A DNA stretch of 64,000 nt, from assembly GCA_963971285.1 (NCBI GenBank), contig OZ020260.1, positions 9,954,798 through 10,018,797 of the forward strand, given 5' to 3'. This DNA is from Astropecten irregularis. Its lineage: Eukaryota; Echinodermata; Asteroidea; Paxillosida; Astropectinidae. This document shows, piece after piece, positions 1 to 44,671 of this stretch (position 1 is its first letter; each line of letters opens with the position of its first letter). The position numbers were made by a program, and so were the translations under genes. Under the pieces are notes generated by a model, which saw nothing but the letters and a program-made list of their open reading frames with translations, was not told the origin of the DNA and made no database searches.

Positions 1-3000
1 TAACAACTACAGCTGGAGATACAACCACTGTTGCTGACACAACCACAGCTGGAGACACAACCACTGTAGCTGAAACAACTACTGCTGAAGACACAACCAC
101 TGTTGCTGAAACAACCACAGCTGGAGACACAACCACTGTGGCTGACACAACCACAGCTGGAGACACAACCACTGTTGCTGAAACAACCACAGCTGGAGAC
201 ACTACAACAGTAGTTGACACAACTACAGCTGTTGACACAACCACTGTAGCTGAAACAACTACAGCTGGAGACACAACAACAGTAGCTGGCACAACCACAG
301 CTGTTGACACAACCACTGTAGCTGAAACAACTACAGCTGGAGATACAACCACTGTAGCTGAAACAACCACAGCTGGAGACACAACCACTGTTGCTGAAAC
401 AACCACTGCTGGAGACACAACAACAGTAGCTGACACAACTACAGCTGGAGATACAACCACCGTTGCTGACACAACTACAGCTGGAGAAACAACCACTGTA
501 GCTGAAACAACTACATCTGGAGATACAACCACTGTTGCTGAAACAACTACAGGTGGAGATACAACCACTGTACCCGAAACAACCACAGCTGGAGACACAA
601 CAACAGTAGCTGACACAACCACAGCTGTTGACACAACCACTGTAGCTGAAACAACTACAGCTGGAGATACAACCACTGTAGCTGAAACAACTACTGCTGA
701 AGACACAACCACTGTTGCTGAAACAACTACAGCTGGAGATACAACCACTATTGCTGACACAACTATAGCTGGATACACAACTACTGTAGCTGAAACAACT
801 ACTGCCGAAGAGACAACCACTGTTGCTGAAACAACCACAGCTGGAGACACAACCACTGTGGCTGACACAACCACAGCTGGAGACACAACCACTGTTGCTG
901 AAACAACTACAGCTGGAGATACAACCACTGTTGCTGAAACAACCAGAGGTGGAGATACAACCACTGTAGCCGAAACAACCACAGCTGGAGAGACAACCAC
1001 TGTTGCTGACACAACTACAGCTGGAGACACAACCACTGTAGCTGAAACAACTACAGCTGGAGATACAACCACTGTAGCTGAAACAACCACAGCTGGAGAG
1101 ACAACCACTGTTGCTGAAACAACTACAGCTGGAGATACAACCACTGTTGCTGAAACAACCACAGCTGGAGACACAACAACTGTAGCTGACACAACTACAG
1201 CTGTTGACACAACCACTGTAGCTGAAACAACTACAGCTGGAGATACAACCACTGTTGCTGACACAACTATAGCTGGAGACACAACCACTGTAGCTGAAAC
1301 AACTACAGCTGGAGATGCAACCACTGTTGCTGAAACAACTACTGCCGAAGAGACAACCACTGTTGCTGAAACAACCACAGCTGGAGACACAACCACTGTG
1401 GCTGACACAACCACAGCTGGAGACACAACCACTGTTGCTGAAACAACCACAGCTGGAGACACTACAACAGTAGTTGACACAACTACAGCTGTTGACACAA
1501 CCACTGTAGCTGAAACAACTACAGCTGGAGACACAACAACAGTAGCTGACACAACCACAGCTGTTGACACAACCACTGTAGCTGAAACAACTACAGCTGG
1601 AGATACAACCACTGTAGCTGAAACAACCACAGCTGGAGACACAACCACTGTTGCTGAAACAACCACAGCTGGAGACACAACAACAGTGGCTGACACATCC
1701 ACAGCTGTTGACACAACCACTGTAGCTGAAACAACTACAGCTGGAGATACAACCACTGTAGCTGAAACAACCACAGCTGGAGACACAACCATTGTTGCTG
1801 AAACAACCACAGCTGGAGACACAACAACAGTAGCTGACACAACTACAGCTGGAGATACAACCACCGTTGCTGACACAACTACAGCTGGAGAAACAACCAC
1901 TGTAGCTGAAACAACTACATCTGGAGATACAACCACTGTTGCTGAAACAACTACAGGTGGAGATACAACCACTGTAGCCGAAACAACCACAGCTGCAGAC
2001 ACAACAACAGTAGCTGACACAACCACAGCTGTTGACACAACCACTGTAGCTGAAACAACTACAGCTGGAGATACAACCACTGTAGCTGAAACAACTACTG
2101 CTGAAGACACAACCACTGTTGCTGAAACAACTACAGGTGGAGATACAACCACTGTAGCTGACACAACTACAGCTGTTGACACAACCACTGTAGCTGTAAC
2201 AACTACAGCTGGAGATACAACCACTGTTGCTGACACAACCACAGCTGGAGACACAACCACTGTAGCTGAAACAACTACTGCTGAAGACACAACCACTGTT
2301 GCTGAAACAACCACAGCTGGAGACACAACCACTGTGGCTGACACAACCACAGCTGGAGACACAACCACTGTTGCTGAAACAACCACAGCTGGAGACACTA
2401 CAACAGTAGTTGACACAACTACAGCTGTTGACACAACCACTGTAGCTGAAACAACTACAGCTGGAGACACAACAACAGTAGCTGGCACAACCACAGCTGT
2501 TGACACAACCACTGTAGCTGAAACAACTACAGCTGGAGATACAACCACTGTAGCTGAAACAACCACAGCTGGAGACACAACCACTGTTGCTGAAACAACC
2601 ACAGCTGGAGACACAACAACAGTAGCTGACACAACTACAGCTGGAGATACAACCACCGTTGCTGACACAACTACAGCTGGAGAAACAACCACTGTAGCTG
2701 AAACAACTACATCTGGAGATACAACCACTGTTGCTGAAACAACTACAGGTGGAGATACAACCACTGTACCCGAAACAACCACAGCTGGAGACACAACAAC
2801 AGTAGCTGACACAACCACAGCTGTTGACACAACCACTGTAGCTGAAACAACTACAGCTGGAGATACAACCACTGTAGCTGAAACAACTACTGCTGAAGAC
2901 ACAACCACTGTTGCTAAAACAACTACAGCTGGAGATACAACCACTATTGCTGACACAACTATAGCTGGATACACAACTACTGTAGCTGAAACAACTACTG

Positions 3001-4050
3001 CCGAAGAGACAACCACTGTTGCTGAAACAACCACAGCTGGAGACACAACCACTGTGGCTGACACAACCACAGCTGGAGACACAACCACTGTTGCTGAAAC
3101 AACTACAGCTGGAGATACAACCACTGTTGCTGAAACAACCAGAGGTGGAGATACAACCACTGTAGCCGAAACAACCACAGCTGGAGAGACAACCACTGTT
3201 GCTGACACAACTACAGCTGGAGACACAACCACTGTAGCTGAAACAACTACAGCTGGAGATACAACCACTGTAGCTGAAACAACCACAGCTGGAGAGACAA
3301 CCACTGTTGCTGAAACAACTACAGCTGGAGATACAACCACTGTTGCTGAAACAACCACAGCTGGAGACACAACAACTGTAGCTGACACAACTACAGCTGT
3401 TGACACAACCACTGTAGCTGAAACAACTACAGCTGGAGATACAACCACTGTTGCTGACACAACTATAGCTGGAGACACAACCACTGTAGCTGAAACAACT
3501 ACAGCTGGAGATGCAACCACTGTTGCTGAAACAACTACTGCCGAAGAGACAACCACTGTTGCTGAAACAACCACAGCTGGAGACACAACCACTGTGGCTG
3601 ACACAACCACAGCTGGAGACACAACCACTGTTGCTGAAACAACCACAGCTGGAGACACTACAACAGTAGTTGACACAACTACAGCTGTTGACACAACCAC
3701 TGTAGCTGAAACAACTACAGCTGGAGACACAACAACAGTAGCTGACACAACCACAGCTGTTGACACAACCACTGTAGCTGAAACAACCACAGCTGTTGAC
3801 ACAACCACTGTAGCTGAAACAACTACAGCTGGAGACACAACCACTGTTGCTGAAACAACCACAGCTGGAGACACAACAACAGTGGCTGACACAACCACAG
3901 CTGTTGACACAACCACTGTAGCTGAAACAACTACAGCTGGAGATACAACCACTGTAGCTGAAACAACCACAGCTGGAGACACAACCATTGTTGCTGAAAC
4001 AACCACAGCTGGAGACACAACAACAGTAGCTGACACAACTACAGCTGGAG
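1..4050 (+). repeat. Higher-order tandem duplication, period 2196 bp
   Basis: Rare variants recur 2196 bp (61 x 36) apart: a Pro variant (TACCCG) at 571 and 2767, and an Arg variant (AGAGGT) at 945 and 3141. The first bases of the window match those starting at 2197, so the first copy is cut by the window edge or begins to its left. The copies diverge after about 4.05 kb. Confidence 0.85.
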
Positions 4051-7000
4051 ATACAACCACTGTTGCTGACACAACTACAACTGGAGAAACAACCACTCTA
4101 GCTGAAAGAACTACATCTGGAGATACAACCACTGTTGCTGAAACAACCACAGGTGGAGATACAACCACTGTAGCCGAAACAACCACAGCTGGAGAGACAA
4201 CCACTGTTGCTGACACAACTACAGCTGGAGATACAACCACTGTAGCTGAAACAACTACAGCTGGAGATACAACCACTGATGCTGACACAACTACAGCTGG
4301 AGACACAACCACTGTAGCTGAAACAACCACAGCTGGAGAGACAACCACTGTTGCTGAAACAACTACAGCTGGAGATACAACCACTGTTGCTGACACAACT
4401 ACAGCTGGAGACACAACCACTGTAGCTGAAACAACTACAGCTGGAGAAACAACCACTGTAGCTGAAACAACCACAGCTGGAGAGACAACCACTGTTGCTG
4501 AAACAACCACAGCTGGAGACACAACCACTGTGGCTGACACAACCACAGCTGGAGACACAACCACTGTTGCTGAAACAACCACAGCTGGAGACACTACAAC
4601 AGTAGTTGACACAACTACAGCTGTTGACACAACCACTGTAGCTGAAACAACTACAGCTGGAGACAAAACAACAGTAGTTGACACAACCACAGCTGTTGAC
4701 ACAACCACTGTTGCTGAAACAACTACAGCTGGAGATACAACCACTGTTGCTGATACAACCACTGACACAACTACAGCTGTTGACACAACCACTGTAGCTG
4801 ACACAACTACAGCTGGAGATACAACCACTGTTACTGACACCTCTATAGCTGGAGACACAACCACTGTAGCTGAAACAACTACAGCTGGAGATGCAACCAC
4901 TGTTGCTGAAACAACTACTGCCGAAGAGACAACCACTGTTGCTGTAACAACCACAGCTGGAGACACAACAACTGTAGCTGACACAACTACAGCTGTTGAC
5001 ACAACCACTGTAGCTGAAACAACTACTGCTGAAGACACAACCACTGTTGCTGAAGCAACCACAGCTGGAGACACTACAACAGTAGTTGACACAACTACAG
5101 CTGTTGACACAACCACTGTAGCTGACACTACTACAGCTGGAGACACAACCACTGTAGCTGAAACAACTACTGCTGAAGACACAACCACTGTAGCTGAAAC
5201 AACCACAGCTGGAGACACAACCACTGTTGCTGAAACAACCACAGCTGGAGACACAACAACAGCAGCTGACACAACTACAGCTGGAGATACAACCACTGTT
5301 GCTGACACAACTACAACTGGAGAAACAACCACTGTAGCTGAAAGAACTACATCTGGAGATACATCCACTGTTGCTGAAACAACCACAGGTGGAGAAACAA
5401 GCACTGTTGCCGAAACAACCACAGCTGGAGAGGCAACCACTGTTGCTGACACAACTACAGCTGGAGATACAACCACTGTAGCTGAAACAACTACAGCTGG
5501 AGATACAACCACTGATGCTGACACAACTACAGCTGGAGACACAACCACTGTAGCTGAAACAACCACAGCTGGAGATACAACCACTTTAGCTGAAACAACC
5601 ACAGCTGGAGAGACAACCACTGTTGCTGACGCAACTACAGCTGGAGATACATCCACTGTAGTTGAAACAACTACAGCTGGAGATACAACCACTGTTGCTG
5701 ACACAACTACAGCTGTTGATACAACCACTGTTGCTGAAACAACTACAGGTGGAGATACAACCACTGTAGCCGAAGACACAACCACAGCTGGAGACACAAC
5801 AACAGTAGCTGACACAACCACAGCTGTTGACACAACCACTGTAGCTGAAACAACTACAGCTGGAGATACAACCACTGTAGCTGAAACAACTACTGCTGAA
5901 GACACAACCACTGTTGCTGAAACAACTACAGCTGGAGATACAACCACTATTGCTGACACAACTATAGCTGGAGACACAACCACTGTAGCTGAACCAACCA
6001 CAGCTGGATATACAACTACTGTAGCTGAAACAACTACTGCCGAAGAGACAACCACTGTTGCTGAAACAACCACAGCTGGAGACACAACCACTGTGGCTGA
6101 CACAACCACAGCTGGAGACACAACCACTGTTGCTGAAACAACTACAGCTGGAGATACAACCACTGTTGCTGAAACAACCACAGGTGGAGATACAACCACT
6201 GTAGCCGAAACAACCACAACTGGAGAGACAACCACTGTTGCTGACACAACTACAGCTGGAGATACACCCACTGTAGTTGAAACAACTACAGCTGGAGATA
6301 CAACCACTGTTGCTGACACAACTACAGCTGGAGACACAACCACTGTAGCTGAAACAACTACAGCTGGAGATAGAACCACTGTAGCTGAAACAACCACAGC
6401 TGGAGAGACAACCACTGTTGCTGAAACAACTACAGCTGGAGATACAACCACTGGTGCTGAAACAACCAAAGCTGGAGACACTACAACAGTAGTTGACACA
6501 ACTACAGCTGTTGACACAACCACTGTAGCTGAAACAACTACAGCTGGAGACACAACAACAGTAGCTGACACAACCACAGCTGTTGACACAACCACTGTAG
6601 CTGAAACAACTACAGCTGGAGATACAACCACTGTAGCTGAAACAACCACAGCTGGAGACACAACCACTGTTGCTGAAACAACCACAGCTGGAGACACAAC
6701 AACAGTGGCTGACACAACCACAGCTGTTGACACAACCACTGTAGCTGAAACAACTACAGCTGGAGATACAACCACTGTAGCTGAAACAACCACAGCTGGA
6801 GACACAACCATTGTTGCTGAAACAACCACAGCTGGAGACATAACAACAGTAGCTGACACAACTACAGCTGGAGATACAACCACTGTTGCTGACACAACTA
6901 CAACTGGAGAAACAACCACTCTAGCTGAAAGAACTACATCTGGAGATACAACCACTGTTGCTGAAACAACCACAGGTGGAGATACAACCACTGTAGCCGA

Positions 7001-10000
7001 AACAACCACAGCTGGAGAGACAACCACTGTTGCTGACACAACTACAGCTGGAGATACAACCACTGTAGCTGAAACAACTACAGCTGGAGATACAACCACT
7101 GATGCTGACACAACTACAGCTGGAGACACAACCACTGTAGCTGAAACAACCACAGCTGGAGAGACAACCACTGTTGCTGAAACAACTACAGCTGGAGATA
7201 CAACCACTGTTGCTGACACAACTACAGCTGGAGACACAACCACTGTAGCTGAAACAACTACAGCTGGAGAAACAACCACTGTAGCTGAAACAACCACAGC
7301 TGGAGAGACAACCACTGTTGCTGAAACAACCACAGCTGGAGACACAACCACTGTGGCTGACACAACCACAGCTGGAGACACAACCACTGTTGCTGAAACA
7401 ACCACAGCTGGAGACACTACAACAGTAGTTGACACAACTACAGCTGTTGACACAACCACTGTAGCTGAAACAACTACAGCTGGAGACAAAACAACAGTAG
7501 TTGACACAACCACAGCTGTTGACACAACCACTGTTGCTGAAACAACTACAGCTGGAGATACAACCACTGTTGCTGATACAACCACTGACACAACTACAGC
7601 TGTTGACACAACCACTGTAGCTGACACAACTACAGCTGGAGATACAACCACTGTTGCTGACACCTCTATAGCTGGAGACACAACCACTGTAGCTGAAACA
7701 ACTACAGCTGGAGATGCAACCACTGTTGCTGAAACAACTACTGCCGAAGAGACAACCACTGTTGCAGTAACAACCACAGCTGGAGACACAACAACTGTAG
7801 CTGAAACAACTACTGCTGAAGACACAACCACTGTTGCTGAAACAACCACAGCTGGAGACACTACAACAGTAGTTGACACAACTACAGCTGTTGACACAAC
7901 CACTGTAGCTGACACTACTACAGCTGGAGACACAACCACTGTAGCTGAAACAACTACTGCTGAAGACACAACCACTGTAGCTGAAACAACCACAGCTGGA
8001 GACACAACCACTGTTGCTGAAACAACCACAGCTGGAGACACAACAACAGCAGCTGACACAACTACAGCTGGAGATACAACCACTGTTGCTGACACAACTA
8101 CAACTGGAGAAACAACCACTGTAGCTGAAAGAACTACATCTGGAGATACATCCACTGTTGCTGAAACAACCACAGGTGGAGAAACAAGCACTGTTGCCGA
8201 AACAACCACAGCTGGAGAGGCAACCACTGTTGCTGACACAACTACAGCTGGAGATACAACCACTGTAGCTGAAACAACTACAGCTGGAGATACAACCACT
8301 GATGCTGACACAACTACAGCTGGAGACACAACCACTGTAGCTGAAACAACCACAGCTGGAGATACAACCACTTTAGCTGAAACAACCACAGCTGGAGAGA
8401 CAACCACTGTTGCTGACGCAACTACAGCTGGAGATACATCCACTGTAGTTGAAACAACTACAGCTGGAGATACAACCACTGTTGCTGACACAACTACAGC
8501 TGTTGATACAACCACTGTTGCTGAAACAACTACAGGTGGAGATACAACCACTGTAGCCGAAGACACAACCACAGCTGGAGACACAACAACAGTAGCTGAC
8601 ACAACCACAGCTGTTGACACAACCACTGTAGCTGAAACAACTACAGCTGGAGATACAACCACTGTAGCTGAAACAACTACTGCTGAAGACACAACCACTG
8701 TTGCTGAAACAACTACAGCTGGAGATACAACCACTATTGCTGACACAACTATAGCTGGAGACACAACCACTGTAGCTGAACCAACCACAGCTGGATATAC
8801 AACTACTGTAGCTGAAACAACTACTGCCGAAGAGACAACCACTGTTGCTGAAACAACCACAGCTGGAGACACAACCACTGTGGCTGACACAACCACAGCT
8901 GGAGACACAACCACTGTTGCTGAAACAACTACAGCTGGAGATACAACCACTGTTGCTGAAACAACCACAGGTGGAGATACAACCACTGTAGCCGAAACAA
9001 CCACAACTGGAGAGACAACCACTGTTGCTGACACAACTACAGCTGGAGATACACCCACTGTAGTTGAAACAACTACAGCTGGAGATACAACCACTGTTGC
9101 TGACACAACTACAGCTGGAGACACAACCACTGTAGCTGAAACAACTACAGCTGGAGATAGAACCACTGTAGCTGAAACAACCACAGCTGGAGAGACAACC
9201 ACTGTTGCTGAAACAACTACAGCTGGAGATACAACCACTGGTGCTGAAACAACCACAGCTGGAGACACTACAACAGTAGTTGACACAACTACAGCTGTTG
9301 ACACAACCACTGTAGCTGAAACAACTACAGCTGGAGACACAACAACAGTAGCTGAGACAACCACAGCTGTTGACACAACCACTGTAGCTGAAACAACTAC
9401 AGCTGGAGATACAACCACTGTAGCTGAAACAACCACAGCTGGAGACACAACCACTGTTGCTGAAACAACCACAGCTGGAGACACAACAACAGTGGCTGAC
9501 ACAACCACAGCTGTTGACACAACCACTGTAGCTGAAACAACTACAGCTGGAGATACAACCACTGTAGCTGAAACAACCACAGCTGGAGACACAACCATTG
9601 TTGCTGAAACAACCACAGCTGGAGACATAACAACAGTAGCTGACACAACTACAGCTGGAGATACAACCACTGTTGCTGACACAACTACAACTGGAGAAAC
9701 AACCACTCTAGCTGAAAGAACTACATCTGGAGATACAACCACTGTTGCTGAAACAACCACAGGTGGAGATACAACCACTGTAGCCGAAACAACCACAGCT
9801 GGAGAGACAACCACTGTTGCTGACACAACTACAGCTGGAGATACAACCACTGTAGCTGAAACAACTACAGCTGGAGATACAACCACTGATGCTGACACAA
9901 CTACAGCTGGAGACACAACCACTGTAGCTGAAACAACCACAGCTGGAGAGACAACCACTGTTGCTGAAACAACTACAGCTGGAGATACAACCACTGTTGC

Positions 10001-13000
10001 TGACACAACTACAGCTGGAGACACAACCACTGTAGCTGAAACAACTACAGCTGGAGAAACAACCACTGTAGCTGAAACAACCACAGCTGGAGAGACAACC
10101 ACTGTTGCTGAAACAACCACAGCTGGAGACACAACCACTGTGGCTGACACAACCACAGCTGGAGACACAACCACTGTTGCTGAAACAACCACAGCTGGAG
10201 ACACTACAACAGTAGTTGACACAACTACAGCTGTTGACACAACCACTGTAGCTGAAACAACTACAGCTGGAGACAAAACAACAGTAGTTGACACAACCAC
10301 AGCTGTTGACACAACCACTGTTGCTGAAACAACTACAGCTGGAGATACAACCACTGTTGCTGATACAACCACTGACACAACTACAGCTGTTGACACAACC
10401 ACTGTAGCTGACACAACTACAGCTGGAGATACAACCACTGTTGCTGACACCTCTATAGCTGGAGACACAACCACTGTAGCTGAAACAACTACAGCTGGAG
10501 ATGCAACCACTGTTGCTGAAACAACTACTGCCGAAGAGACAACCACTGTTGCAGTAACAACCACAGCTGGAGACACAACAACTGTAGCTGACACAACTAC
10601 AGCTGTTGACACAACCACTGTAGCTGAAACAACTACAGCTGGAGATACAACCACTGTAGCTGAAACAACCACAGCTGGAGACACAACCACTGTTGCTGAA
10701 ACAACCACAGCTGGAGAGACAACCACTGTTGCTGAAACAACTACAGCTGGAGATACAACCACTGGTGCTGAAACAACCACAGCTGGAGACACTACAACAG
10801 TAGTTGACACAACTACAGCTGTTGACACAACCACTGTAGCTGAAACAACTACAGCTGGAGACACAACAACAGTAGCTGACACAACCACAGCTGTTGACAC
10901 AACCACTGTAGCTGAAACAACTACAGCTGGAGATACAACCACTGTAGCTGAAACAACCACAGCTGGAGACACAACCACTGTTGCTGAAACAACCACAGCT
11001 GGAGACACAACAACAGTGGCTGACACAACCACAGCTGTTGACACAACCACTGTAGCTGAAACAACTACAGCTGGAGATACAACCACTGTAGCTGAAACAA
11101 CCACAGCTGGAGACACAACAACAGTAGCTGACACAACTACAGCTGGAGATACAACCACTGTTGCTGACACAACTACAACTGGAGAAACAACCACTCTAGC
11201 TGAAAGAACTACATCTGGAGATACAACCACTGTTGCTGAAACAACCACAGGTGGAGATACAACCACTGTAGCCGAAACAACCACAGCTGGAGAGACAACC
11301 ACTGTTGCTGACACAACTACAGCTGTTGACACAACCACTGTAGCTGAAACAACTACAGCTGGAGATACAACCACTGTAGCTGAAACAACCACAGCTGGAG
11401 ACACAACCACTGTTGCTGAAACAACCACAGCTGGAGAGACAACCACTGTTGCTGAAACAACTACAGCTGGAGATACAACCACTGGTGCTGAAACAACCAC
11501 AGCTGGAGACACTACAACAGTAGTTGACACAACTACAGCTGTTGACACAACCACTGTAGCTGAAACAACTACAGCTGGAGACACAACAACAGTAGCTGAC
11601 ACAACCACAGCTGTTGACACAACCACTGTAGCTGAAACAACTACAGCTGGAGATACAACCACTGTAGCTGAAACAACCACAGCTGGAGACACAACCACTG
11701 TTGCTGAAACAACCACAGCTGGAGACACAACAACAGTGGCTGACACAACCACAGCTGTTGACACAACCACTGTAGCTGAAACAACTACAGCTGGAGATAC
11801 AACCACTGTAGCTGAAACAACCACAGCTGGAGACACAACCATTGTTGCTGAAACAACCACAGCTGGAGACACAACAACAGTAGCTGACACAACTACAGCT
11901 GGAGATACAACCACTGTTGCTGACACAACTACAACTGGAGAAACAACCACTCTAGCTGAAAGAACTACATCTGGAGATACAACCACTGTTGCTGAAACAA
12001 CCACAGCTGGAGATACAACCACTGTAGCTGAAACAACTACAGCTGGAGAAACAACCACTGATGCTGACACAACTACAGCTGGAGACACAACCACTGTAGC
12101 TGAAACAACCACAGCTGGAGAGACAACCACTGTTGCTGAAACAACTACAGCTGGAGATACAACCACTGTTGCTGACACAACTACAGCTGGAGACACAACC
12201 ACTGTAGCTGAAACAACTACAGCTGGAGAAACAACCACTGTAGCTGAAACAACCACAGCTGGAGAGACAACCACTGTTGCTGAAACAACCACAGCTGGAG
12301 ACACAACCACTGTGGCTGACACAACCACAGCTGGAGACACAACCACTGTTGCTGAAACAACCACAGCTGGAGACACTACAACAGTAGTTGACACAACTAC
12401 AGCTGTTGACACAACCACTGTAGCTGAAACAACTACAGCTGGAGACAAAACAACAGTAGTTGACACAACCACAGCTGTTGACACAACCACTGTTGCTGAA
12501 ACAACTACAGCTGGAGATACAACCACTGTTGCTGATACAACCACTGACACAACTACAGCTGTTGACACAACCACTGTAGCTGACACAACTACAGCTGGAG
12601 ATACAACCACTGTTGCTGACACCTCTATAGCTGGAGACACAACCACTGTAGCTGAAACAACTACAGCTGGAGATGCAACCACTGTTGCTGAAACAACTAC
12701 TGCCGAAGAGACAACCACTGTTGCTGTAACAACCACAGCTGGAGACACAACAACTGTAGCTGACACAACTACAGCTGTTGACACAACCACTGTAGCTGAA
12801 ACAACTACTGCTGAAGACACAACCACTGTTGCTGAAACAACCACAGCTGGAGACACTACAACAGTAGTTGACACAACTACAGCTGTTGACACAACCACTG
12901 TAGCTGACACTACTACAGCTGGAGACACAACCACTGTAGCTGAAACAACTACTGCTGAAGACACAACCACTGTAGCTGAAACAACCACAGCTGGAGACAC

Positions 13001-31000: not shown

Positions 31001-34000
31001 AACCACAGGTGGAGATACAACCACTGTAGCCGAAACAACCACAGCTGGAGAGACAACCACTGTTGCTGACACAACTACAGCTGGAGATACAACCACTGTA
31101 GTTGAAACAACTACAGCTGGAGATACAACCACTGTTGCTGACACAACTACAGCTGGAGACACAACCACTGTAGCTGAAACAACTACAGCTGGAGATACAA
31201 CCACTGTAGCTGAAACAACCACAGCTGGAGAGACAACCACTCTTGCTGAAACAACTACAGCTGGAGATACAACCACTGTTGCTGAAACAACCACAGCTGG
31301 AGACACAACAACTGTAGCTTACACAACTACAGCTGTTGACACAACCACTGTAGCTGAAACAACTACAGCTGGAGATACAACCACTGTTGCTGACACAACT
31401 ATAGCTGGAGACACAACCACTGTAGCTGAAACAACTACAGCTGGAGATGCAACCATTGTTGCTGAAACAACTACTGCCGAAGAGACAACCACTGTTGCTG
31501 TAACAACCACAGCTGGAGACACAACAACTGTAGCTGACACAACTACAGCTGTTGACACAACCACTGTAGCTGAAACAACCACAGGTGGAGATACAACCAC
31601 TGTAGCCGAAACAACCACAGCTGGAGAGACAACCACTGTTGCTGACACAACTACAGCTGAAGACACAACCACTGTTGCTGAAACAACCACAGCTGGAGAC
31701 ACAACCACTGTGGCTGACACAACCACAGCTGGAGACACAACCAGTGTTGCTGAAACAACCACAGCTGGAGACACTACAACAGTAGCTGACACAACGACAG
31801 CTGTTGACACAACCACTGTAGCTGACACTACTACAGCTGGAGACACAACCACTGTAGCTGAAACAACTACTGCTGAAGACACAACCACTGTTGCTGAAAC
31901 AACCACAGCTGAAGACACAACCACTGTTGCTGAAACAACCACAGCTGGAGACACAACCACTGTGGCTGACACAACCACAGCTGGAGACACAACCACTGTA
32001 GCTGAAACAACTACATCTGGAGATACAACCACTGTTGCTGAAACAACCACAGGTGGAGATACAACCACTGTAGCCGAAACAACCACAGCTGGAGAGACAA
32101 CCACTGTTGCTGACACAACTACAGCTGGAGATACAACCACTGTAGTTGAAACAACTACAGCTGGAGATACAACCACTGTTGCTGACACAACTACAGCTGG
32201 AGACACAACCACTGTAGCTGAAACAACTACAGCTGGAGATACAACCACTGTAGCTGAAACAACCACAGCTGGAGAGACAACCTCTGTTGCTGAAACAACT
32301 ACAGCTGGAGATACAACCACTGTTGCTGAAACAACCACAGCTGGAGACACAACAACTGTAGCTGACACAACTACAGCTGTTGACACAACCACTGTAGCTG
32401 AAACAACTACAGCTGGAGATACAACCACTGTTGCTGACACAACTATAGCTGGAGACACAACCACTGTAGCTGAAACAACTACAGCTGGAGATACAACCAC
32501 TGTAGCTGAGACAACTACTGCCGAAGTGACAACCACTGTTGCTGAAACAACCACAGCTGGAGACACAATCACTGTTGCTGAAACAACCACAGCTGTTGAC
32601 ACAACCACTGTTGCTGAAACAACTACAGCTGGAGACACTACAACAGTAGCTGACACAACTACAGCTGTTGACACAACCACTGTAGCTGAAACAACTACAG
32701 CTGGAGACACAACAACAGTAGCTGACCCAACCACAGCTGTTGACACAACCACTGTAGCTGACACAACTACAGCTGGAGACACAACCACTGTAGCTGAAAC
32801 AACTACTGCTGAAGACACAACCACTGTTGCTGAAACAACCACAGCTGGAGACACTACAACAGTAGCTGACACAACTACAGCTGCAGACACAACCAGTGTT
32901 GCTGAAACAACCACAGCTGGAGACACTACAACAGTAGCTGACACAACTACAGCTGTTGACACAACCACTGTAGCTGAAACAACTACAGCTGGAGATACAA
33001 CCACTTTAGCTGAAACAACCACAGCTGGAGACACAACCACTGTTGCTGAAACAACCACAGCTGGAGACACAACAACAGTAGCTGACACAACTACAGCTGG
33101 AGATACAACCACTGTTGCTGACACAACTACAGCTGGAGAAGCAACCTCTGTAGCTGAAACAACTACATCTGGAGATACAACCACTGTTGCTGAAACAACC
33201 ACAGGTGGAGATACAACCACTGTAGCCGAAACAACCACAGCTGGAGAGACAACCACTGTTGCTGACACAACTACAGCTGAAGACACAACCACTGTTGTTG
33301 AAACAACCACAGCTGGAGACACAACCACTGTGGCTGACACAACCACAGCTGGAGACACAACCAGTGTTGCTGAAACAACCGCAGCTGGAGACACTACAAC
33401 AGTAGCTGACACAACTACAGCTGAAGACACAACCACTGTGGCTGACACAACCACAGCTGGAGAGACAACCACTGTTGCTGACACAACTATAGCTGGAGAT
33501 ACAACCACTGTAGCTGAAACAACTACAGCTGGAGATACAACCACTGATGCTGACACAACTACAGCTGGAGACACAACCACTGTAGCTGAAACAAGTACAG
33601 CTGGAGATACAACCACTGTAGCTGAAACAACCACAGCTGGAGAGACAACCACTGTTGCTGAAACAAATACAGCTGGAGATACAACCACTGTTGCTGAAAC
33701 AACCACAGCTGGAGACACAACCACTGTGGCTGACACAACCACAGCTGGAGACACAACCAGTGTTGCTGAAACAACCACAGCTGGAGACACTACAAGAGTA
33801 GCTGACACAACTACAGCTGTTGACACAACCACTGTAGCTGAAACAACTACAGCTGGAGACACAACAACAGTAGCTGACCGAACCACAGCTGTTGACACAA
33901 CCACTGTAGCTGACACAACTACAGCTGGAGACACAACCACTGTAGCTGAAACAACTACTGCTGAAGACACAACCACTGTTGCTGAAACAACCACAGCTGG

Positions 34001-37000
34001 AGACACAACCACTGTGGCTGACACAACCACAGCTGATGACACAACCACTGTAGCTGAAACAACTACAGCTGGAGATACAACCACTTTAGCTGAAACAACC
34101 ACAGCTGGAGACACAACCACTGTTGCTGAAACAACCACAGCTGGAGACACAACAACAGTAGCTGACACAACTACATCTGGAGATACAACCACTTTAGCTG
34201 AAACAACCACAGCTGGAGACACAACCACTGTTGCTGAAACAGCCACAGCTGGAGACACAACGACAGTAGCTGACACAACTACATCTGGAGACACAACCAC
34301 TGTGGCTGACACAACCACAGCTGGAGACACAACCACTGTTGCTGAAACAACTACAGCTGGAGATACAACCACTGTTGCTGAAACAGCCACAGGTGGAGAT
34401 ACAACCACTGTAGCCGAAACAACCACAGCTGGAGAGACAACCACTGTTGCTGACACAACTACAGCTGAAGACACAACCACTGTTGCTGAAACAACCACAG
34501 CTGGAGACACAACCACTGTGGCTGATACAACCACAGCTGGAGACACAACCAGTGTTGCTGAAACAACCACAGCTGGAGACACTACAACAGTAGCTGACAC
34601 AACTACAGCTGTTGACACAACCACTGTAGCTGAAACAACTACAGCTGGAGACACAACAACAGTGGCTGACACAACCACAGCTGTTGACACAACCACTGTA
34701 GCTGAAACAACTACATCTGGAGATACAACCACTGTTGCTGAAACAACCACAGGTGGAGATACAACCAGTGTAGCCGAAACAACCACAGCTGGAGAGACAA
34801 CCACTGTTGCTGACACAACTACAGCTGGAGATACAACCACTGTAGCTGAAACAACTACAGCTGGAGATACAACCACTGATGCTGACACAACTACAGCTGG
34901 AGACACAACCACTGTAGCTGAAACAACTACAGCTGGAGATACAACCACTGTAGCTGAAACAACCACAGCTGGAGAGACAACCACTGTTGCTGAAACAACT
35001 ACAGCTGGAGATACAACCACTGTTGCTGAAACAACCACAGCTGGAGACACAACAACTGTAGCTGACACAACTACAGCTGTTGACACAACCACTGTAGCTG
35101 AAACAACTACAGCTGGAGATACAACCACTGTTGCTGACACAACTATAGCTGGAGACACAACCACTGTAGCGGAAACAAATACAGCTGGAGATACAACCAC
35201 TGATGCTAAAACAACCACAGCTGGAGACACAACCACTGTTTCTCAAACAACCACAGCTGGAGACACAACCACTGTGGCCGAGACAACTACAGCTGGAGAC
35301 ACAACAACAGTAGATGACACAACTACAGCTGTTGACACCACCACTGTAGCTGAAACAACTACAGCTGGAGATACAACCACTGTAGCTGAAACAACTACAG
35401 CTGGAGACACAACAACAGTGGCTGACACAACCACAGCTGTTGACACAACCACTGTAGCTGAAACAACTACATCTGGAGATACAACCACTGTTGCTGAAAC
35501 AACCACAGGTGGAGATACAACCACTGTAGCCGAAACAACCACAGCTGGAGAGACAACCACTGTTGCTGACACAACTACAGCTGGAGATACAACCACTGTA
35601 GCTGAAACAACTACAGCTGGAGATACAACCACTGATGCTGACACAACTACAGCTGGAGACACAACCACTGTAGCTGAAACAACTACAGCTGGAGATACAA
35701 CCACTGTAGCTGAAACAACCACAGCTGGAGAGACAACCACTGTTGCTGAAACAACTACAGCTGGAGATACAACCACTGTTGCTGAAACAACCACAGCTGG
35801 AGACACAACAACTGTAGCTGACACAACTACAGCTGTTGACACAACCACTGTAGCTGAAACAACTACAGCTGGAGATACAACCACTGTTGCTGACACAACT
35901 ATAGCTGGAGACACAACCACTGTAGCTGAAACAAATACAGCTGGAGATACAACCACTGATGCTGACACAACTACAGCTGGAGACACAACCACTGTAGCTG
36001 AAACAACTACAGCTGGAGATACAACCACTGTAGCTGAAACAACCACAGCTGGAGAGACAACCACTGTTGCTGAAACAACTACAGCTGGAGATACAACCAC
36101 TGTTGCTGAAACAACCACAGCTGGAGACACAACAACTGTAGCTGACACAACTACAGCTGTTGACACAACCACTGTAGCTGAAACAACTACAGCTGGAGAT
36201 ACAACCACTGTTGCTGACACAACTATAGCTGGAGACACAACCACTGTAGCTGAAACAAATACAGCTGGAGATACAACCACTGATGCTGACACAACTATAG
36301 CTGGAGACACAACCACTGTAGCTGAAACAAATACAGCTGGAGATACAACCACTGATGCTGACACAACTACAGCTGGAGACACAACCACTGTAGCTGAAAC
36401 AACTACAGCTGGAGATACAACCACTGTAGCTGAAACAACCACAGCTGGAGAGACAACCACTGTTGCTGAAACAACTACAGCTGGAGATACAACCACTGTT
36501 GCTGAAACAACCACAGCTGGAGACACAACCACTGTAGCTGGCACAACTACAGCTGTTGACACAACCACTGTAGCTGAAACAACTACAGCTGGAGATACAA
36601 CCACTGTTGCTGACACAACTATAGCTGGATATACAACCACTGTAGCTGAAACAACTACTGCCGAAGAGACAATCACTGTTGCTGAAACAACCACAGCTGG
36701 AGAGACAACCACTGTAGCTGAAACAACTACACCTGGAGATACAACCACTGTAGCTGAAACAACCACAGCTGGAGAGACAACCACTGTTGCTGAAACAACT
36801 ACAGCTGGAGATACAACCACTGTTGCTGAAACAACCACAGCTGGAGACACAACAACTGTGGCTGACACAACCACAGCTGGAGACACAACCACTGTTGCTG
36901 AAACAACTACAGCTGGAGACACTACAACAGTAGCTGACACAACTACAGCTGTTGACACAACCACTGTAGCTGAAACAACTACAGCTGGAGACACAACAAC

Positions 37001-40000
37001 AGTAGCTGACCCAACCACAGCTGTTGACACAACCACTGTTATTGAGAAAACTACAGCTGGAGATACAACCACTGTAGCTGAAACAACCACAGCTGGAGAG
37101 ACAACCACTGTTGCTGAAACAACCACAGCTGGAGACACAACCACTGTTGCTGAAACAACCACAGCTGGAGACACAACAACAGTAGCTGACACAACTACAG
37201 CTGGAGATACAACCACTGTTGCTGAAACAACCACAGCTCGAGACACAACCACTGTTTCTCAAACTACCACAGCTGGAGACACAACCACTGTGGCCGAGAC
37301 AACTACAGCTGGAGACACAACAACAGTAGATGACACAACTACAGCTGTTGACACCACCACTGTAGCTGAAACAACCACAGCTGGAGATACAACCACTGTT
37401 GCTGAAACAACCACAGCTGGAGACACAACCACTGTGGCTGACACAACCACAGGTGGAGACACAACCACTGTTGCTGAAACAACCACAGCTGGAGAAACTA
37501 CAACAGTAGTTGACACAACTACAGCTGTTGACACAACCACTGTAGCTGACACAACCACAGCTGTTGACACAACCACTGTAGCTGAAACAACTACAGCTGG
37601 AGATACAACCACAGTAGCTGAAACAACCACAGCTGGAGACACAACCACTGTTGCTGAAACAACCACAGCTGGAGACACAACAACAGTAGCTGACACAACT
37701 ACAGCTGGAGATACAACCACTGTTGCTGACACAACTACAGCTGGAGAAACAACCACTGTAGCTGACACAACTACAGCTGGAGACACTAGAACAGTAGCTG
37801 ACACAACTACAGCTGTTGACACAACCACTGTAGCTGAAACAACTACAGCTGGAGACACAACAACAGTGGCTGACACAACCACAGCTGTTGACACAACCAC
37901 TGTAGCTGAAACAACTACAGCTGGAGATACAACCACGGTAGCTGAAACAACCACAGCTGGAGAAACAACCACTGTTGCTGAAACAACCACAGCTGGAGAC
38001 ACAACAACAGTAGCTGACACAACTACAGCTGGAGATACAACCACTGTTGCTGACACAACTACAACTGGAGAAACAACCACTGTAGCTGAAACAACTACAT
38101 CTGGAGATACAACCACTGTTGCTGAAACAACCATAGGTGGAGATACAACCGCTGTAGCCGAAACAACCACAGCTGGAGAGACAACCACTGTAGCTGAAAC
38201 AACTACAGCTGGAGATACAACCACTGTAGCTGAAACAACTACAGCTGGAGATACAACCACTTTAGCTGAAACAACTACAGCTGGAGACACAACCACTGTG
38301 ATTGAGACAACTACAGCTGCAGAAACAACTACTGTTGCTGAGACAACTACAGCTGGAGAAACAACAACTGTTGCTGAGACAACTACAGCTGGAGAAACAA
38401 CAACTGTAGCTGACACAACTACAGCTGGAGAAACAACAACTGTAGCTGACGCAACTACAGCTGGAGTCACAACCACTGTGGCAGAGTCAACTACAGCTGG
38501 AGAAACAACCACTGTTGCTGAGACTACTACTGTTGGAGAAACAACAACTGTAGCTGACGCAACTACAGCTGTAGAAGCAACCACTCTACCTGAGACAACT
38601 ACAGCTGGAGACAGAACCACTGTTATTGAGACAACTACAGCTGGAGAAACAACCACTGTTGCTGAGACAACTACAGATGGAGAAACAACAACTGTAGCTG
38701 AGACCACTACAGCTGGAGAAACAACCACTGTTGCTGAGATAACTACCGCTGGAGAAACAACAATTGTAGCTGACGCAACTACAGCTGGAGAAACAACCAC
38801 TGTTGCAGAGACAACTACAGATGGAGAAACAACAACTGTAGCTGAGACAACTACAGCTGGAGAAACAACAACTGTAGCTGACACAACTACAGCTGGGGAA
38901 ACAACCACTGTTACTGAGACAACTACAGCTGGAGGCACAACTACTGTGATTGAGACAACTACAGCTGGAGAAACATCCACAGTTGCTGAGACTACTACAG
39001 CTGGAGAAACAACAACTGTAGCTGACACAACTACAGCTGGGGAAACATCAACTGTAGCTGACACAACTACAGCTGGAGAACCAACCACTGTGGCAGAGTC
39101 AACTACAGCTGGAGAAACAACCACTGTTGCTGAGACTACTACTGTTGGAGAAACAACAACTGTAGCTGACACAACTACAGCTGTGGAAACAACCACTCTA
39201 CCTGAGACAACTACAGCTAGAGACACAACCACTGTTATTGAGACAACTACAGCTGGAGAAACAACCACTGTTGCTGAAATTACTACAGATAGAGCCACAA
39301 CCACTGTAGCTGAGACCACTACAGCTAGAGAAACAACCACTGTTGCTGAGACAACTACAGCTGGAGAAACAACAATTGTAGCTGACACAACTACAGCTGG
39401 AAAAACAACAACTGTAGCTGACACAACTACAGCTGGAGTCACAACCACTGTGGCAGAGTCAACTACAGCTGGAGAAACAACCACTGTTGCTGAGACTACT
39501 ACTGTTGGAGAAACAACAACTGTAGCTGACGCAACTACAGCTGTGGAAACAACCACTCTACCTGAGACAACTTCAGTTGGAGACAGAACCACTGTTATTG
39601 AGACAACTACAGCTGGAGAAACAACCACTGTTGCAGAGACAACTACAGATGGAGAAACAACAACTGTAGCTGAGACAACTACAGCTGGAGAAACAACAAC
39701 TGTAGCTGACACAACTACAGCTGGGGAAACAACCACTCTTCCTGAGACAACTACAGCTGGAGAAACAACCACTGTGATTGAGACAATTACAGCTGGAGAA
39801 ACAACCACTGTTTCTGTGACAACTACAGCTGGAGAAACAACCACTGTTGCTGAAACTACTACTGTTGGAGAAACAACAACTGTAGCTGAAATTACTACAG
39901 CTGGAGATACAACCACTGTAGCTGAAACAACCACAGCTGGAGAGACAACCACTGTTGCTGAAACAACTACAGCTGGAGATACAACCACTGTTGCTGAAAC

Positions 40001-43000
40001 AACTACAGCTGGAGACACAACAACTGTAGCTGACACAACTACAGCTGTTGACACAACCACTGTAGCTGAAACAACTACAGCTGGAGATACAACCACTGTT
40101 GCTGACACAACTATAGCTGGAGACACAACCACTGTAGCTGAAACAAATACAGCTGGAGATACAACCACTGATGCTGACACAACTATAGCTGGAGACACAA
40201 CCACTGTAGCTGAAACAAATACAGCTGGAGATACAACCACTGATGCTGACACAACTACAGCTGGAGACACAACCACTGTAGCTGAAACAACTACAGCTGG
40301 AGATACAACCACTGTAGCTGAAACAACCACAGCTGGAGAGACAACCACTGTTGCTGAAACAACTACAGCTGGAGATACAACCACTGTTGCTGAAACAACC
40401 ACAGCTGGAGACACAACCACTGTAGCTGGCACAACTACAGCTGTTGACACAACCACTGTAGCTGAAACAACTACAGCTGGAGATACAACCACTGTTGCTG
40501 ACACAACTATAGCTGGATATACAACCACTGTAGCTGAAACAACTACTGCCGAAGAGACAATCACTGTTGCTGAAACAACCACAGCTGGAGAGACAACCAC
40601 TGTAGCTGAAACAACTACACCTGGAGATACAACCACTGTAGCTGAAACAACCACAGCTGGAGAGACAACCACTGTTGCTGAAACAACTACAGCTGGAGAT
40701 ACAACCACTGTTGCTGAAACAACCACAGCTGGAGACACAACAACTGTAGCTGACACAACCACAGCTGGAGACACAACCACTGTTGCTGAAACAACTACAG
40801 CTGGAGACACTACAACAGTAGCTGACACAACTACAGCTGTTGACACAACCACTGTAGCTGAAACAACTACAGCTGGAGACACAACAACAGTAGCTGACCC
40901 AACCACAGCTGTTGACACAACCACTGTTATTGAGAAAACTACAGCTGGAGATACAACCACTGTAGCTGAAACAACCACAGCTGGAGAGACAACCACTGTT
41001 GCTGAAACAACCACAGCTGGAGACACAACCACTGTTGCTGAAACAACCACAGCTGGAGACACAACAACAGTAGCTGACACAACTACAGCTGGAGATACAA
41101 CCACTGTTGCTGAAACAACCACAGCTCGAGACACAACCACTGTTTCTCAAACTACCACAGCTGGAGACACAACCACTGTGGCCGAGACAACTACAGCTGG
41201 AGACACAACAACAGTAGATGACACAACTACAGCTGTTGACACCACCACTGTAGCTGAAACAACTACAGCTGGAGATACAACCACTGTTGCTGAAACAACC
41301 ACAGCTGGAGACACAACCACTGTGGCTGACACAACCACAGGTGGAGACACAACCACTGTTGCTGAAACAACCACAGCTGGAGAAACTACAACAGTAGTTG
41401 ACACAACTACAGCTGTTGACACAACCACTGTAGCTGAAACAACTACAGCTGGAGACACAACAACAGTAGCTGACACAACCACAGCTGTTGACACAACCAC
41501 TGTAGCTGAAACAACTACAGCTGGAGATACAACCACAGTAGCTGAAACAACCACAGCTGGAGACACAACCACTGTTGCTGAAACAACCACAGCTGGAGAC
41601 ACAACAACAGTAGCTGACACAACTACAGCTGGAGATACAACCACTGTTGCTGACACAACTACAGCTGGAGAAACAACCACTGTAGCTGACACAACTACAG
41701 CTGGAGACACTAGAACAGTAGCTGACACAACTACAGCTGTTGACACAACCACTGTAGCTGAAACAACTACAGCTGGAGACACAACAACAGTGGCTGACAC
41801 AACCACAGCTGTTGACACAACCACTGTAGCTGAAACAACTACAGCTGGAGATACAACCACGGTAGCTGAAACAACCACAGCTGGAGAAACAACCACTGTT
41901 GCTGAAACAACCACAGCTGGAGACACAACAACAGTAGCTGACACAACTACAGCTGGAGATACAACCACTGTTGCTGACACAACTACAACTGGAGAAACAA
42001 CCACTGTAGCTGAAACAACTACATCTGGAGATACAACCACTGTTGCTGAAACAACCATAGGTGGAGATACAACCGCTGTAGCCGAAACAACCACAGCTGG
42101 AGAGACAACCACTGTAGCTGAAACAACTACAGCTGGAGATACAACCACTGTAGCTGAAACAACTACAGCTGGAGATACAACCACTTTAGCTGAAACAACT
42201 ACAGCTGGAGACACAACCACTGTGATTGAGACAACTACAGCTGCAGAAACAACTACTGTTGCTGAGACAACTACAGCTGGAGAAACAACAACTGTTGCTG
42301 AGACAACTACAGCTGGAGAAACAACAACTGTAGCTGACACAACTACAGCTGGAGAAACAACAACTGTAGCTGACGCAACTACAGCTGGAGTCACAACCAC
42401 TGTGGCAGAGTCAACTACAGCTGGAGAAACAACCACTGTTGCTGAGACTACTACTGTTGGAGAAACAACAACTGTAGCTGACGCAACTACAGCTGTAGAA
42501 GCAACCACTCTACCTGAGACAACTACAGCTGGAGACAGAACCACTGTTATTGAGACAACTACAGCTGGAGAAACAACCACTGTTGCTGAGACAACTACAG
42601 ATGGAGAAACAACAACTGTAGCTGAGACCACTACAGCTGGAGAAACAACCACTGTTGCTGAGACAACTACCGCTGGAGAAACAACAATTGTAGCTGACGC
42701 AACTACAGCTGGAGAAACAACCACTGTTGCAGAGACAACTACAGATGGAGAAACAACAACTGTAGCTGAGACAACTACAGCTGGAGAAACAACAACTGTA
42801 GCTGACACAACTACAGCTGGGGAAACAACCACTGTTACTGAGACAACTACAGCTGGAGGCACAACTACTGTGATTGAGACAACTACAGCTGGAGAAACAT
42901 CCACAGTTGCTGAGACTACTACAGCTGGAGAAACAACAACTGTAGCTGACACAACTACAGCTGGGGAAACATCAACTGTAGCTGACACAACTACAGCTGG

Positions 43001-44397
43001 AGAACCAACCACTGTGGCAGAGTCAACTACAGCTGGAGAAACAACCACTGTTGCTGAGACTACTACTGTTGGAGAAACAACAACTGTAGCTGACACAACT
43101 ACAGCTGTGGAAACAACCACTCTACCTGAGACAACTACAGCTAGAGACACAACCACTGTTATTGAGACAACTACAGCTGGAGAAACAACCACTGTTGCTG
43201 AAATTACTACAGATAGAGCCACAACCACTGTAGCTGAGACCACTACAGCTAGAGAAACAACCACTGTTGCTGAGACAACTACAGCTGGAGAAACAACAAT
43301 TGTAGCTGACACAACTACAGCTGGAAAAACAACAACTGTAGCTGACACAACTACAGCTGGAGTCACAACCACTGTGGCAGAGTCAACTACAGCTGGAGAA
43401 ACAACCACTGTTGCTGAGACTACTACTGTTGGAGAAACAACAACTGTAGCTGACGCAACTACAGCTGTGGAAACAACCACTCTACCTGAGACAACTTCAG
43501 TTGGAGACAGAACCACTGTTATTGAGACAACTACAGCTGGAGAAACAACCACTGTTGCAGAGACAACTACAGATGGAGAAACAACAACTGTAGCTGAGAC
43601 AACTACAGCTGGAGAAACAACAACTGTAGCTGACACAACTACAGCTGGGGAAACAACCACTCTTCCTGAGACAACTACAGCTGGAGAAACAACCACTGTG
43701 ATTGAGACAATTACAGCTGGAGAAACAACCACTGTTTCTGTGACAACTACAGCTGGAGAAACAACCACTGTTGCTGAAACTACTACTGTTGGAGAAACAA
43801 CAACTGTAGCTGAAATTACTACAGCTGGAGACACAACCACTGTAGCTGAGACCACTACAGCTGGAGAAACAACCACTGTTGCTGAGACTACTACCGCTAG
43901 AGACACAGCCACTGTAGCTGATACTACTACAGCTGGAGGAACAACCACAGTTGCTAAGACAACTACAGCTGGAGAAACAACAACTGTAGCTGACACAACT
44001 ACAGCAGGAGACACAACCACTGTAGCTGAGACCACTACAGCTGGAGAAACAACCTCTGTGATTGAGACAACTACAGCTGGAGACACAACAACTTTAGCTG
44101 AGACAACTACAGCTGGAGAAACAACAACTGTAGCTGACACAACTACTGTTGGAGAAAGAACCACTGTTGCTGAGACTACTACAGCTAGAGACATAACCAC
44201 TGTAGCTGAGACTACTACTGTTGGAGAAAAAACAAGTGTAGCAGAAACGACTACTGTTGGAGAAACAACAGCTCTACCCGAGACAACTACTATTGCTGAG
44301 ATAGCTACAACCAGATTTATAACATCTGATCATGTAACTTTAGTAGCGGACGTGGAAACAACGGCTTCAGAGACAACGTCTGGTGTGACAACTTCTG
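1..44397 (+). CDS. Giant Thr-rich repeat protein, 3' part of a >=44.4-kb exon
   Basis: The reading frame is open from the left edge (first whole codon at base 3) to a splice donor after 44397, giving 14,798 whole codons. The product is almost entirely hexapeptides TTTxx(D/E), typically TTTAGD, TTTAVD, TTTVAE and TTTVAD. No ATG serves as a start: the first possible non-ATG start, at 138, is a GTG coding for Val in an ordinary repeat, so the true 5' end lies to the left. The last ~32 residues leave the array and contain RFITSD and end VTTSG. The donor (TCTG before GTGAGAT) falls after the first base of a Gly codon, so the intron is phase 1. Without splicing the frame would stop at 44433-44435. 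In-frame codons encode no Cys and almost no Pro or aromatics. By composition it resembles secreted mucin-type, O-glycosylated domains; the family is not recognised and the function is inferred only. Confidence 0.85.
3650..10630 (+). repeat. Higher-order repeat, about 2.5 copies, period 2823/2787 bp
   Basis: A 12-bp insertion marker (extra TTTD) recurs at 4752, 7575 and 10362. A Leu-Ala-Glu-Arg variant recurs at 4096, 6919 and 9706. A 3-bp insertion marker (extra Asp) recurs at 5769 and 8556. Spacings are 2823 and 2787 bp, which differ by one 36-bp dimer. The missing dimer is in the second copy near 7.8 kb, where the first copy (about 4.98 kb) and the third (about 10.58 kb) keep it. Confidence 0.85.
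10590..12030 (+). repeat. Tandem duplication, period 720 bp
   Basis: The rare TTTGAE variant recurs at about 10,762 and 11,482, and the surrounding rows of sequence are identical at an offset of 720 bp (20 x 36). The match breaks near 11.82 kb with a register change of one dimer. Confidence 0.8.
12420..20081 (+). repeat. Tandem duplication of a 3831-bp segment
   Basis: Three independent rare markers are offset by exactly 3831 bp: the TTTD insertion (12534 and 16365), the extra-Asp insertion (13551 and 17382) and a TTTAFD variant (about 14,506 and 18,337). Copy 1 runs about 12,420-16,250 and copy 2 about 16,251-20,081. The copies look almost identical; one visible substitution is GCT to GCA near 19,991. 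The period is not a multiple of 36 because the 12-bp and 3-bp insertions lie inside it (3831 = 36 x 106 + 15). Confidence 0.9.
21100..29750 (+). repeat. Higher-order repeat, 3+ copies, period 2556/2592/2772 bp
   Basis: A TTTYAD variant (ACTTAT) recurs with its Tyr codon at 23898, 26454 and 29046, giving spacings of 2556 and 2592 bp. An AGDKKT variant recurs at 21834, 24606 and 27162, giving spacings of 2772 and 2556 bp. All spacings are whole multiples of 36, so copies gained or lost entire dimers. Confidence 0.85.
29650..31885 (+). repeat. Tandem duplication, period 1116 bp
   Basis: A TTTVAY variant has its Tyr codon at 30204 and 31320, and a TTTLAE variant begins at 29655 and 30771. Both pairs are 1116 bp apart (31 x 36). 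The match ends near 31,887, two periods after its start. Confidence 0.85.
36015..43826 (+). repeat. Tandem duplication of a 3.9-kb segment carrying the E-type block
   Basis: Copy 1 runs about 36,015-39,902 and copy 2 about 39,903-43,826. A Ser-Gln variant (TCTCAA) lies at 37257 and 41145, an offset of 3888. A TTTAAE variant lies at 38319 and 42243, an offset of 3924; the extra 36 bp is one dimer gained near 41.43 kb in copy 2 or lost from copy 1. Otherwise the copies differ by few substitutions, such as Ile versus Thr near 38,74x and 42,66x. The junction near 39,903 puts D-type sequence directly after E-type sequence. Confidence 0.9.
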
Positions 44398-44448
44398 GTG
44401 AGATAGGCATATGTGTTTTATTTAATTTAGGTTAATAGATAAACAAGT

Positions 44449-44454
44449 AATAAA
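44449..44454 (+). promoter_or_regulatory. Possible intronic polyadenylation signal
   Basis: AATAAA lies 14 bases after the TAA (44433-44435) that ends the frame if intron 1 is retained. Use would give a shortened protein ending in a 13-residue non-repetitive tail after VTTSG. AATAAA is common by chance in such AT-rich sequence, so this is only a candidate. Confidence 0.3.
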
Positions 44455-44590
44455 CTGCTGCAAACTGCTCATCTGCCAAAATGACCTGAAATATGCTTGG
44501 AGTAAGGAGGGCTTGAGGCAAATCGAGCCAAGCAGGATCTTTCTCTAAATATGTAATATAAATGAATAAATAATTATATAATGGAGCAGT

Positions 44591-44664
44591 GAGCAAAGAT
44601 TAATACATTGAATCGACACCCTGAATACCGTATCTACATTCCACCAACTGAGCTATACAGCCCT
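44591..44664 (-). mobile_element. tRNA-derived SINE-like fragment, minus strand
   Basis: Read on the minus strand, it starts AGGGCT and carries an A-box-like GCTCAGTTGGT and the core TACGGTATTCAG found in the two other copies. The region that would hold a B box is eroded. A CTTTGCTC end resembles the CTTTGTTC near the 3' end of the other copies. It is the left arm of an inverted pair in intron 1. Confidence 0.5.
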
Positions 44665-44671
44665 ATGTACG

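Follow-up and report, generated by a model that had tools for sequence, protein, structure and literature searches.

Gel-forming mucins (MUC2, MUC5AC, MUC5B, and MUC6 type) carry the N-terminal assemblies D1-D2-D'D3, one or a few giant repeat exons, and D4, and the order VWD-C8-TIL is the D-type assembly of these mucins and of von Willebrand factor. Repeat domains of mucins contain approximately 5% Pro or more. Here, we analyzed a 64,000-base stretch of the sea star Astropecten irregularis genome (the window; C24:9954798-10018797, GenBank contig OZ020260.1, in a 475.7-Mb assembly of 168 contigs), which lies within a series of giant Thr-rich repeat exons. We assign a probability of about 0.7 to the reading that the locus is one secreted mucin-like gene, predicted to encode a signal peptide, a HYR domain, approximately 103,000 residues of Cys-free, Thr-rich repeats, and a VWD-C8-TIL assembly. 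Coordinates follow window numbering, with negative values left of the window; 100 kb of flanking DNA on either side and the array ends, in smaller pieces, were also covered.

The predicted gene resembles the gel-forming mucins in that a long Thr-rich region on giant exons is followed by a D4-like VWD-C8-TIL assembly. In contrast to those mucins, it has one HYR domain in place of the N-terminal D1-D2-D'D3, its arrays are almost without Ser or Pro and contain no Cys in the parts read, and the repeat region is spread over six giant exons instead of one and is far longer. Human MUC12 offers another comparison. A preprint from 2026 that covers 296 long-read assemblies reports MUC12 proteins ranging from 4,677 to 23,080 amino acids (aa), and its authors know of no human coding exon larger than the MUC12 repeat exon (PMC13345508). 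The likeness is a single repeat exon of tens of kb; MUC12 is described there as a tethered mucin (PMC13345508), whereas the predicted gene has a C-terminal VWD-C8-TIL, six giant exons, and a total length approximately 4.5 times greater. Sea urchin hyalin and the sea-star footprint proteins Sfp5 and Sfp7, which are secreted by echinoderms as matrix or adhesive components, also contain the HYR domain (PMC9382459), but only one HYR was found here among the listed C24 matches, and it stands beside giant Thr-rich repeats.

Among the papers listed in our searches of open-licence literature, no report of an animal protein of such length was seen. Titin, PKZILLA-1 (approximately 45,000 aa), and an Omnitrophota frame of approximately 85,800 aa are other giant proteins. 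For Omnitrophota, an open reading frame of 39,678 aa is also reported (PMC10066038). All of these reach extreme length from one gene, as the present locus is predicted to do, but they are multidomain or bacterial, whereas the predicted repeat protein is animal, simple in composition, and longer than each of them. The predicted gene is an extreme variant of a mucin-type gene, new in scale.

The exon that fills the left part of the window, which we call PTS3, was examined by open-reading-frame scan. The first-pass annotation had described a frame uninterrupted from the left edge to a well-formed phase 1 donor, forming a single coding exon of at least 44.4 kb. The frame was borne out, with 14,798 codons and no stop in the + frame from base 3 (bases 3-44397); the first in-frame stop, at 44433-44435, lies past the donor. 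This donor (CTTCTG/gtgaga at 44397/44398, phase 1) joins in frame to the acceptor ctctgtgtag/GTCAAA. The range proposed earlier for checking ended at 44907, the base with which the following exon opens. Left of the window, where the 5' boundary had been supposed to lie, the frame continues to approximately -15,656 (acceptor tttacaaacag/GCGAGC; an alternative AG 12 bases upstream leaves the phase unchanged), so that the whole exon measures 60,054 bp and its size had been understated. Its remaining two + frames contain 919 and 1,858 stops, so the openness of the coding frame exceeds what chance would give. The array is built from a tandem 36-base unit with higher orders of 72, 144, and 180 bases, and the repeats translate to hexapeptides such as TTTAGD and TTTVAE. 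A minus-strand open frame of 7,965 aa also runs across the array (window 2-23896). We read such long antisense frames as by-products of codon make-up and set a minus-strand gene aside: only TTA, CTA, and TCA codons place a stop in phase on the antisense strand, and these are rare in PTS3 (63, 104, and 91, respectively). It is well supported that PTS3 is a very large single coding exon, larger than had been claimed.

The same annotation took the ~21.7-kb MUC16 exon as the largest in human, a yardstick that is out of date given the MUC12 allele encoding 23,080 aa (PMC13345508). Since 3 x 23,080 aa correspond to 69,240 bp, PTS3, at 60.05 kb, lies inside the reported animal range, which just its 80.8-kb sister exon PTS5 exceeds. 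The main oddity is the whole gene, not the PTS3 exon alone. Its predicted layout comprises six giant exons of 32-81 kb (33.1, 32.0, 35.3, 60.1, 66.4, and 80.8 kb) and five small exons of the Thr-rich region, all on the + strand. The exon finder and splice scores used for the map below are simple measures of our own, not a trained splice predictor.

Starting at ATG -146449, +: first exon, carrying MSSIKSVFLLMGFILPLLNAQ; signal-peptide-like on by-eye judgement only.
-143253 to -143011, +: HYR exon (PF02494 match).
-142348 to -109265, +: PTS1a, giant Thr-rich exon of 33,084 bp, 28,500 bases of it unread.
-104878 to -72923, +: PTS1b, giant Thr-rich exon of 31,956 bp, 4,477 bases of it unread.
-67149 to -66367, +: small exon of 783 bp.
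-62463 to -27166, +: PTS2, giant Thr-rich exon of 35,298 bp, fully read.
-15656 to 44397, +: PTS3, giant Thr-rich exon of 60,054 bp, phase 1 at both ends; 1 to 44397 in the window.
44398 to 44906, +: phase-1 intron (sites gtgaga and ctctgtgtag), holding genome-dispersed repeat pieces.
44907 to 45095, +: Thr/Ser-rich exon of 189 bp, phase 1 at either end, with a copy spanning 114959-115147.
45531 to 45707, +: Thr/Ser-rich exon of 177 bp, phase 1 at either end, with a copy spanning 115659-115835.
45708 to 48329, +: phase-1 intron preceding PTS4 (sites gtagga and cgatacttacag).
48330 to 114773, +: PTS4, giant Thr-rich exon of 66,444 bp; first 15,671 bases in the window.
114959 to 115147 and 115659 to 115835, +: second pair of 189-bp and 177-bp exons.
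119497 to 200313, +: PTS5, giant Thr-rich exon of 80,817 bp; donor GAGGAG/gtatgt, phase 1.
From approximately 208682, +: VWD exons; acceptor tgtttacag/AAGTTGAG, in frame from PTS5.

Every exon boundary listed as far as PTS5 is phase 1. Counted from the ATG through PTS5, the map gives 309,475 nt and 103,158 codons, of which 92,163 were read with no stop, PTS2 to PTS5 being fully read and 10,995 codons in PTS1a and PTS1b unread. The exons beyond C24:10168797 lie outside the sequence read, and the predicted gene has at least 309,475 coding bases. Scaled up from the residues read, the peptide mass is approximately 10.1 MDa. The PTS1a and PTS1b frames were given as 11,058 and 10,760 aa; among the matches listed for them (150 of 2,451 candidates scored), no stop was found, and all were on C24 at this locus. 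A search with the 189-bp exon gave four genome matches, namely the 189-bp and 177-bp exons of both modules (6/6 candidates scored). Further small exon candidates in gaps A, B, and C (for example, -65328 to -65215; three at -24843 to -20441 and another in gap B; 48112-48177) were dropped, as their translations were not Thr-rich. In the intron after PTS3, the pieces 44443-44549 and 44689-44823 are dispersed repeats with matches at numerous sites on other contigs (63 from 40 of 3,353 candidates scored). Boxes resembling those of tRNA genes were seen by eye near 44720 and 47660; ARAGORN found no tRNA in the window, and Rfam gave nothing in window 44200-48700.

The two ends of the predicted gene were then compared with domain profiles. 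The HYR domain scored 72.8 bits against a curated cut-off of 21.7 (E = 2.9e-20). For VWD, two pieces gave E values of 3.8e-12 and 3.5e-7 singly, the middle piece searched singly gave no match, and the three joined gave 8.6e-20; these pieces were cut by eye and joined by hand, with splice borders only partly checked. C8 follows 3' of VWD (E = 3.3e-13), and TIL follows C8 (E = 1.2e-9, C24:10169371). Thus VWD, C8, and TIL stand in order at C24:10163494-10169547, as in a D4-like C-terminal assembly. On C24, the matches listed were restricted to this locus: VWD only at 10163494 and 10165315 (145/145 candidates scored), C8 only at 10166598 (80/80), TIL only at 10169371 (83/83), and HYR only at 9811543 (150/749). 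As no VWD or C8 match was listed upstream of the arrays on C24, the N-terminal D1-D2-D'D3 of gel-forming mucins was not found. The tandem HYR domains of the hyalin family were likewise not found, since one HYR is among the matches listed on C24 and none is in the four sequenced gaps, where tblastn (E up to 1) with the signal-peptide, HYR, VWD, and C8 pieces found none of them. On other contigs, very many HYR matches were observed in clusters at C9:26.09-26.82 Mb and on C17, C19, and C23 (among the matches listed, 150 of 749 candidates scored), a large hyalin-like expansion; VWD, C8, and TIL matches form long rows at C10:27.05-27.10 Mb and C20:4.13-4.21 Mb, which are probably other large D-domain proteins.

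The composition of the repeats was also examined. Seven repeat exons were examined, and Thr makes up 46.5-49.5% of every one (for PTS1a, 1,525 of its 11,027 residues were counted), as in Ser/Thr-rich mucin repeats, while Pro is 0.0-1.1%, below the level of mucin domains. The 92,163 residues read contain two Cys (residues 31 and 95), both in the HYR part, and none in the arrays read. We therefore use the name mucin-like, not mucin, because of the low Pro; it is not a typical gel-forming mucin either, as it has no N-terminal D assemblies and no array Cys. The predicted protein would nonetheless work in the manner of a mucin.

Codon counts argue for a coding locus. Codons one step from a stop vary, never to a stop: GGA (5275) is accompanied by AGA (286), CGA (5), and no TGA; GAA (6106) by AAA (638), CAA (86), and no TAA; and GAG (2563) by AAG (20), CAG (624), and no TAG. 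Counted by distinct contexts, the GTA/GTT/GTG/GAC/GAT series shows 75 T-first per 1,575 G-first, a ratio that predicts approximately 68 stop contexts for the 1,419 contexts of GGA/GAA/GAG, where none was seen; this estimate is rough, as some TTA and TTG may derive from CTA and CTG. Similarly, 470 blocks of 360 bases matching at 96.5% or more in PTS1b to PTS5 showed no stop differences where 20.4 (from codon-position 1-2 rates) to 25.2 (from pooled rates) were expected, and 157 blocks of 720 bases showed none where 10.9-12.8 were expected, with the compared repeat copies being non-independent events. Third codon positions lead in the differences in PTS1b to PTS4 (PTS3: 64/107/152 for positions one to three).

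Several observations weigh against the one-gene reading. The gene is known here from genomic DNA alone, and its transcript and protein are predicted. In each of the five arrays tested, recent copies differ by fewer silent than amino-acid-changing codons (76/121, 118/161, 105/203, 165/244, and 127/415, silent first), and PTS5 lacks the third-position lead (194/218/140). Between the paired 189-bp exons, 14 of 62 residues differ, and between the openings of PTS4 and PTS5, 16 of 69 do. The acceptor chosen for PTS3 is weak (polypyrimidine fraction 0.29), HYR candidates were scored in part (150/749), the signal peptide was called by eye, and approximately 4.1 kb between PTS1a and PTS1b as well as the DNA after C24:10168797 are unread. 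Stop codons are avoided, and residue-level constraint is weak. Because stops are avoided yet residue changes exceed silent ones, selection seems to keep the composition (Thr-rich, stop-free, Cys-poor) over exact residues. That weak constraint and the 36-base tandem unit would also suit a non-coding satellite, open merely because its unit is stop-free in that frame, but 92,163 codons hold no stop although every non-stop neighbour of these codons does occur, 20.4-25.2 stop differences were expected and none occurred, splice sites fit, and domain exons stand at both ends. We consider a satellite very improbable, and the array locus almost certainly coding. Coding arrays could still be spliced internally, with exons far shorter than the open frames: donor-like GTs (score of 5.0 or more) occur in PTS3 (12/1,970), PTS4 (4/2,836), and PTS5 (12/3,941), and internal splicing would stay in frame owing to the 36-base unit. 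However, pyrimidine-rich tracts (polypyrimidine fraction of at least 0.65) precede 0/4,426 AGs in PTS3, 0/4,474 in PTS4, and 5/5,365 in PTS5, compared with 87/895 across three introns, on a simple score and not a trained predictor. Nine of the 12 chosen acceptors pass this threshold; that of PTS3 fails. Hidden introns therefore appear quite unlikely, and each array is very probably one exon.

Inflation of array lengths in the assembly, or the merging of two haplotypes, would leave the repeats as real coding sequence of smaller extent. Exact repeats reach 3,755 bp between -104,900 and 205,000 (approximately 4.3 kb at the left unread), and unique 501-mers make up just 41-77% of each of five arrays. 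Nevertheless, all exact repeats are shorter than 5,000 bases, so the copies could be told apart with reads at least 10 kb long, and the frame is intact across every block border. The duplicated modules are, in our judgement, too divergent for two haplotypes (189-bp exons 87.8% identical; introns beside the 177-bp pair 74.0, 77.8, and 84.7%), and that variant was set aside. The 177-bp exons themselves differ at one of 177 bases and at no residue, a likeness that could reflect gene conversion or strong selection. An assembly error of this kind is unlikely, if marginally less so than hidden introns. A more serious alternative, which we hold to be possible and the less favoured one, is that several products arise, either as alternative mRNAs with one or a few giant exons between the same ends or from at least two adjacent genes, with no chain of 103,000 residues. 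Any internal exon could be skipped in frame because all are phase 1-1, the PTS2-PTS3 intron of approximately 11.5 kb, without a Thr-rich exon found, is the widest break in the array series, and the 4.1 kb between PTS1a and PTS1b are unread. However, no second HYR, VWD, C8, or TIL is present at the locus among the listed matches, no end-domain pieces (signal peptide, HYR, VWD, or C8) were found in the four gaps, and no array is an evident first or last exon, as each is flanked by splice sites on both sides, acceptor and donor. With no other HYR, VWD, C8, or TIL among the listed C24 matches, a single gene explains the locus most simply.

Under the preferred reading of one mucin-like gene, the array exons quite probably all belong to that gene, and a single full-length mRNA is slightly favoured. 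We regard the chances as even that a single secreted glycoprotein exceeding 103,000 residues (a peptide of approximately 10 MDa with approximately 50,000 Thr) is made from an mRNA with more than 309 kb of coding sequence and exons of up to 80.8 kb. Such a gene would have a serious, though unproven, claim to the longest predicted protein. All exons would be spliced into one mRNA, Thr residues would be O-glycosylated to give a stiff, hydrated bottle-brush chain, and the C-terminal D-type assembly may help join chains into a gel that serves as mucus or adhesive. Unequal exchange probably enlarged the arrays by 36-bp units and by longer blocks whose lengths were always divisible by three, and the module of the small 189-bp and 177-bp exons plus a giant-exon start was itself duplicated. 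With symmetric phase-1 exons, an entire array could be gained or skipped without loss of frame, and A- and C-rich, T-poor repeats, which hardly ever form a pyrimidine-rich acceptor, would hold each array as one exon.

A bacterial or viral origin was set aside on the basis of the spliced gene and an animal-type mitochondrial COX1. The latter lies on the mitochondrial contig C168 (16,335 bases) with 10 read-through TGA codons, and within the 600 bases that were read, two AAA codons coincide with Asn residues of the best-matching solved COX1 (QIYNVIV and INM). Together with the abundance of HYR matches on other contigs, this use of AAA suggests an echinoderm or, less probably, a hemichordate. Another COX1 match, at C131:32162-33484, has a 552-aa open frame without TGA, unlike C168, and the contig is possibly bacterial; a partial COX1 with seven TGA at C25:9951047-9952018, in a large contig, resembles a nuclear copy of mitochondrial DNA.

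A usual exon measures approximately 150 bp, and translation proceeds at approximately five residues per second. If one chain is made, the ceiling of protein length would rise to approximately 103,000 residues and that of coding exons to approximately 81 kb; translation of the frame would take approximately 6 hours at that rate, raising questions of chain packing and secretion, and how an exon approximately 500 times the usual size is defined would become testable. The protein would be the longest predicted in any organism known to us, and the gene would offer a natural test of exon definition, ribosome processivity, and the size limits of secretory cargo. Genes of this kind are likely fragmented or missed by gene finders and short reads. 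The locus is also a candidate gene for echinoderm mucus or adhesive material.

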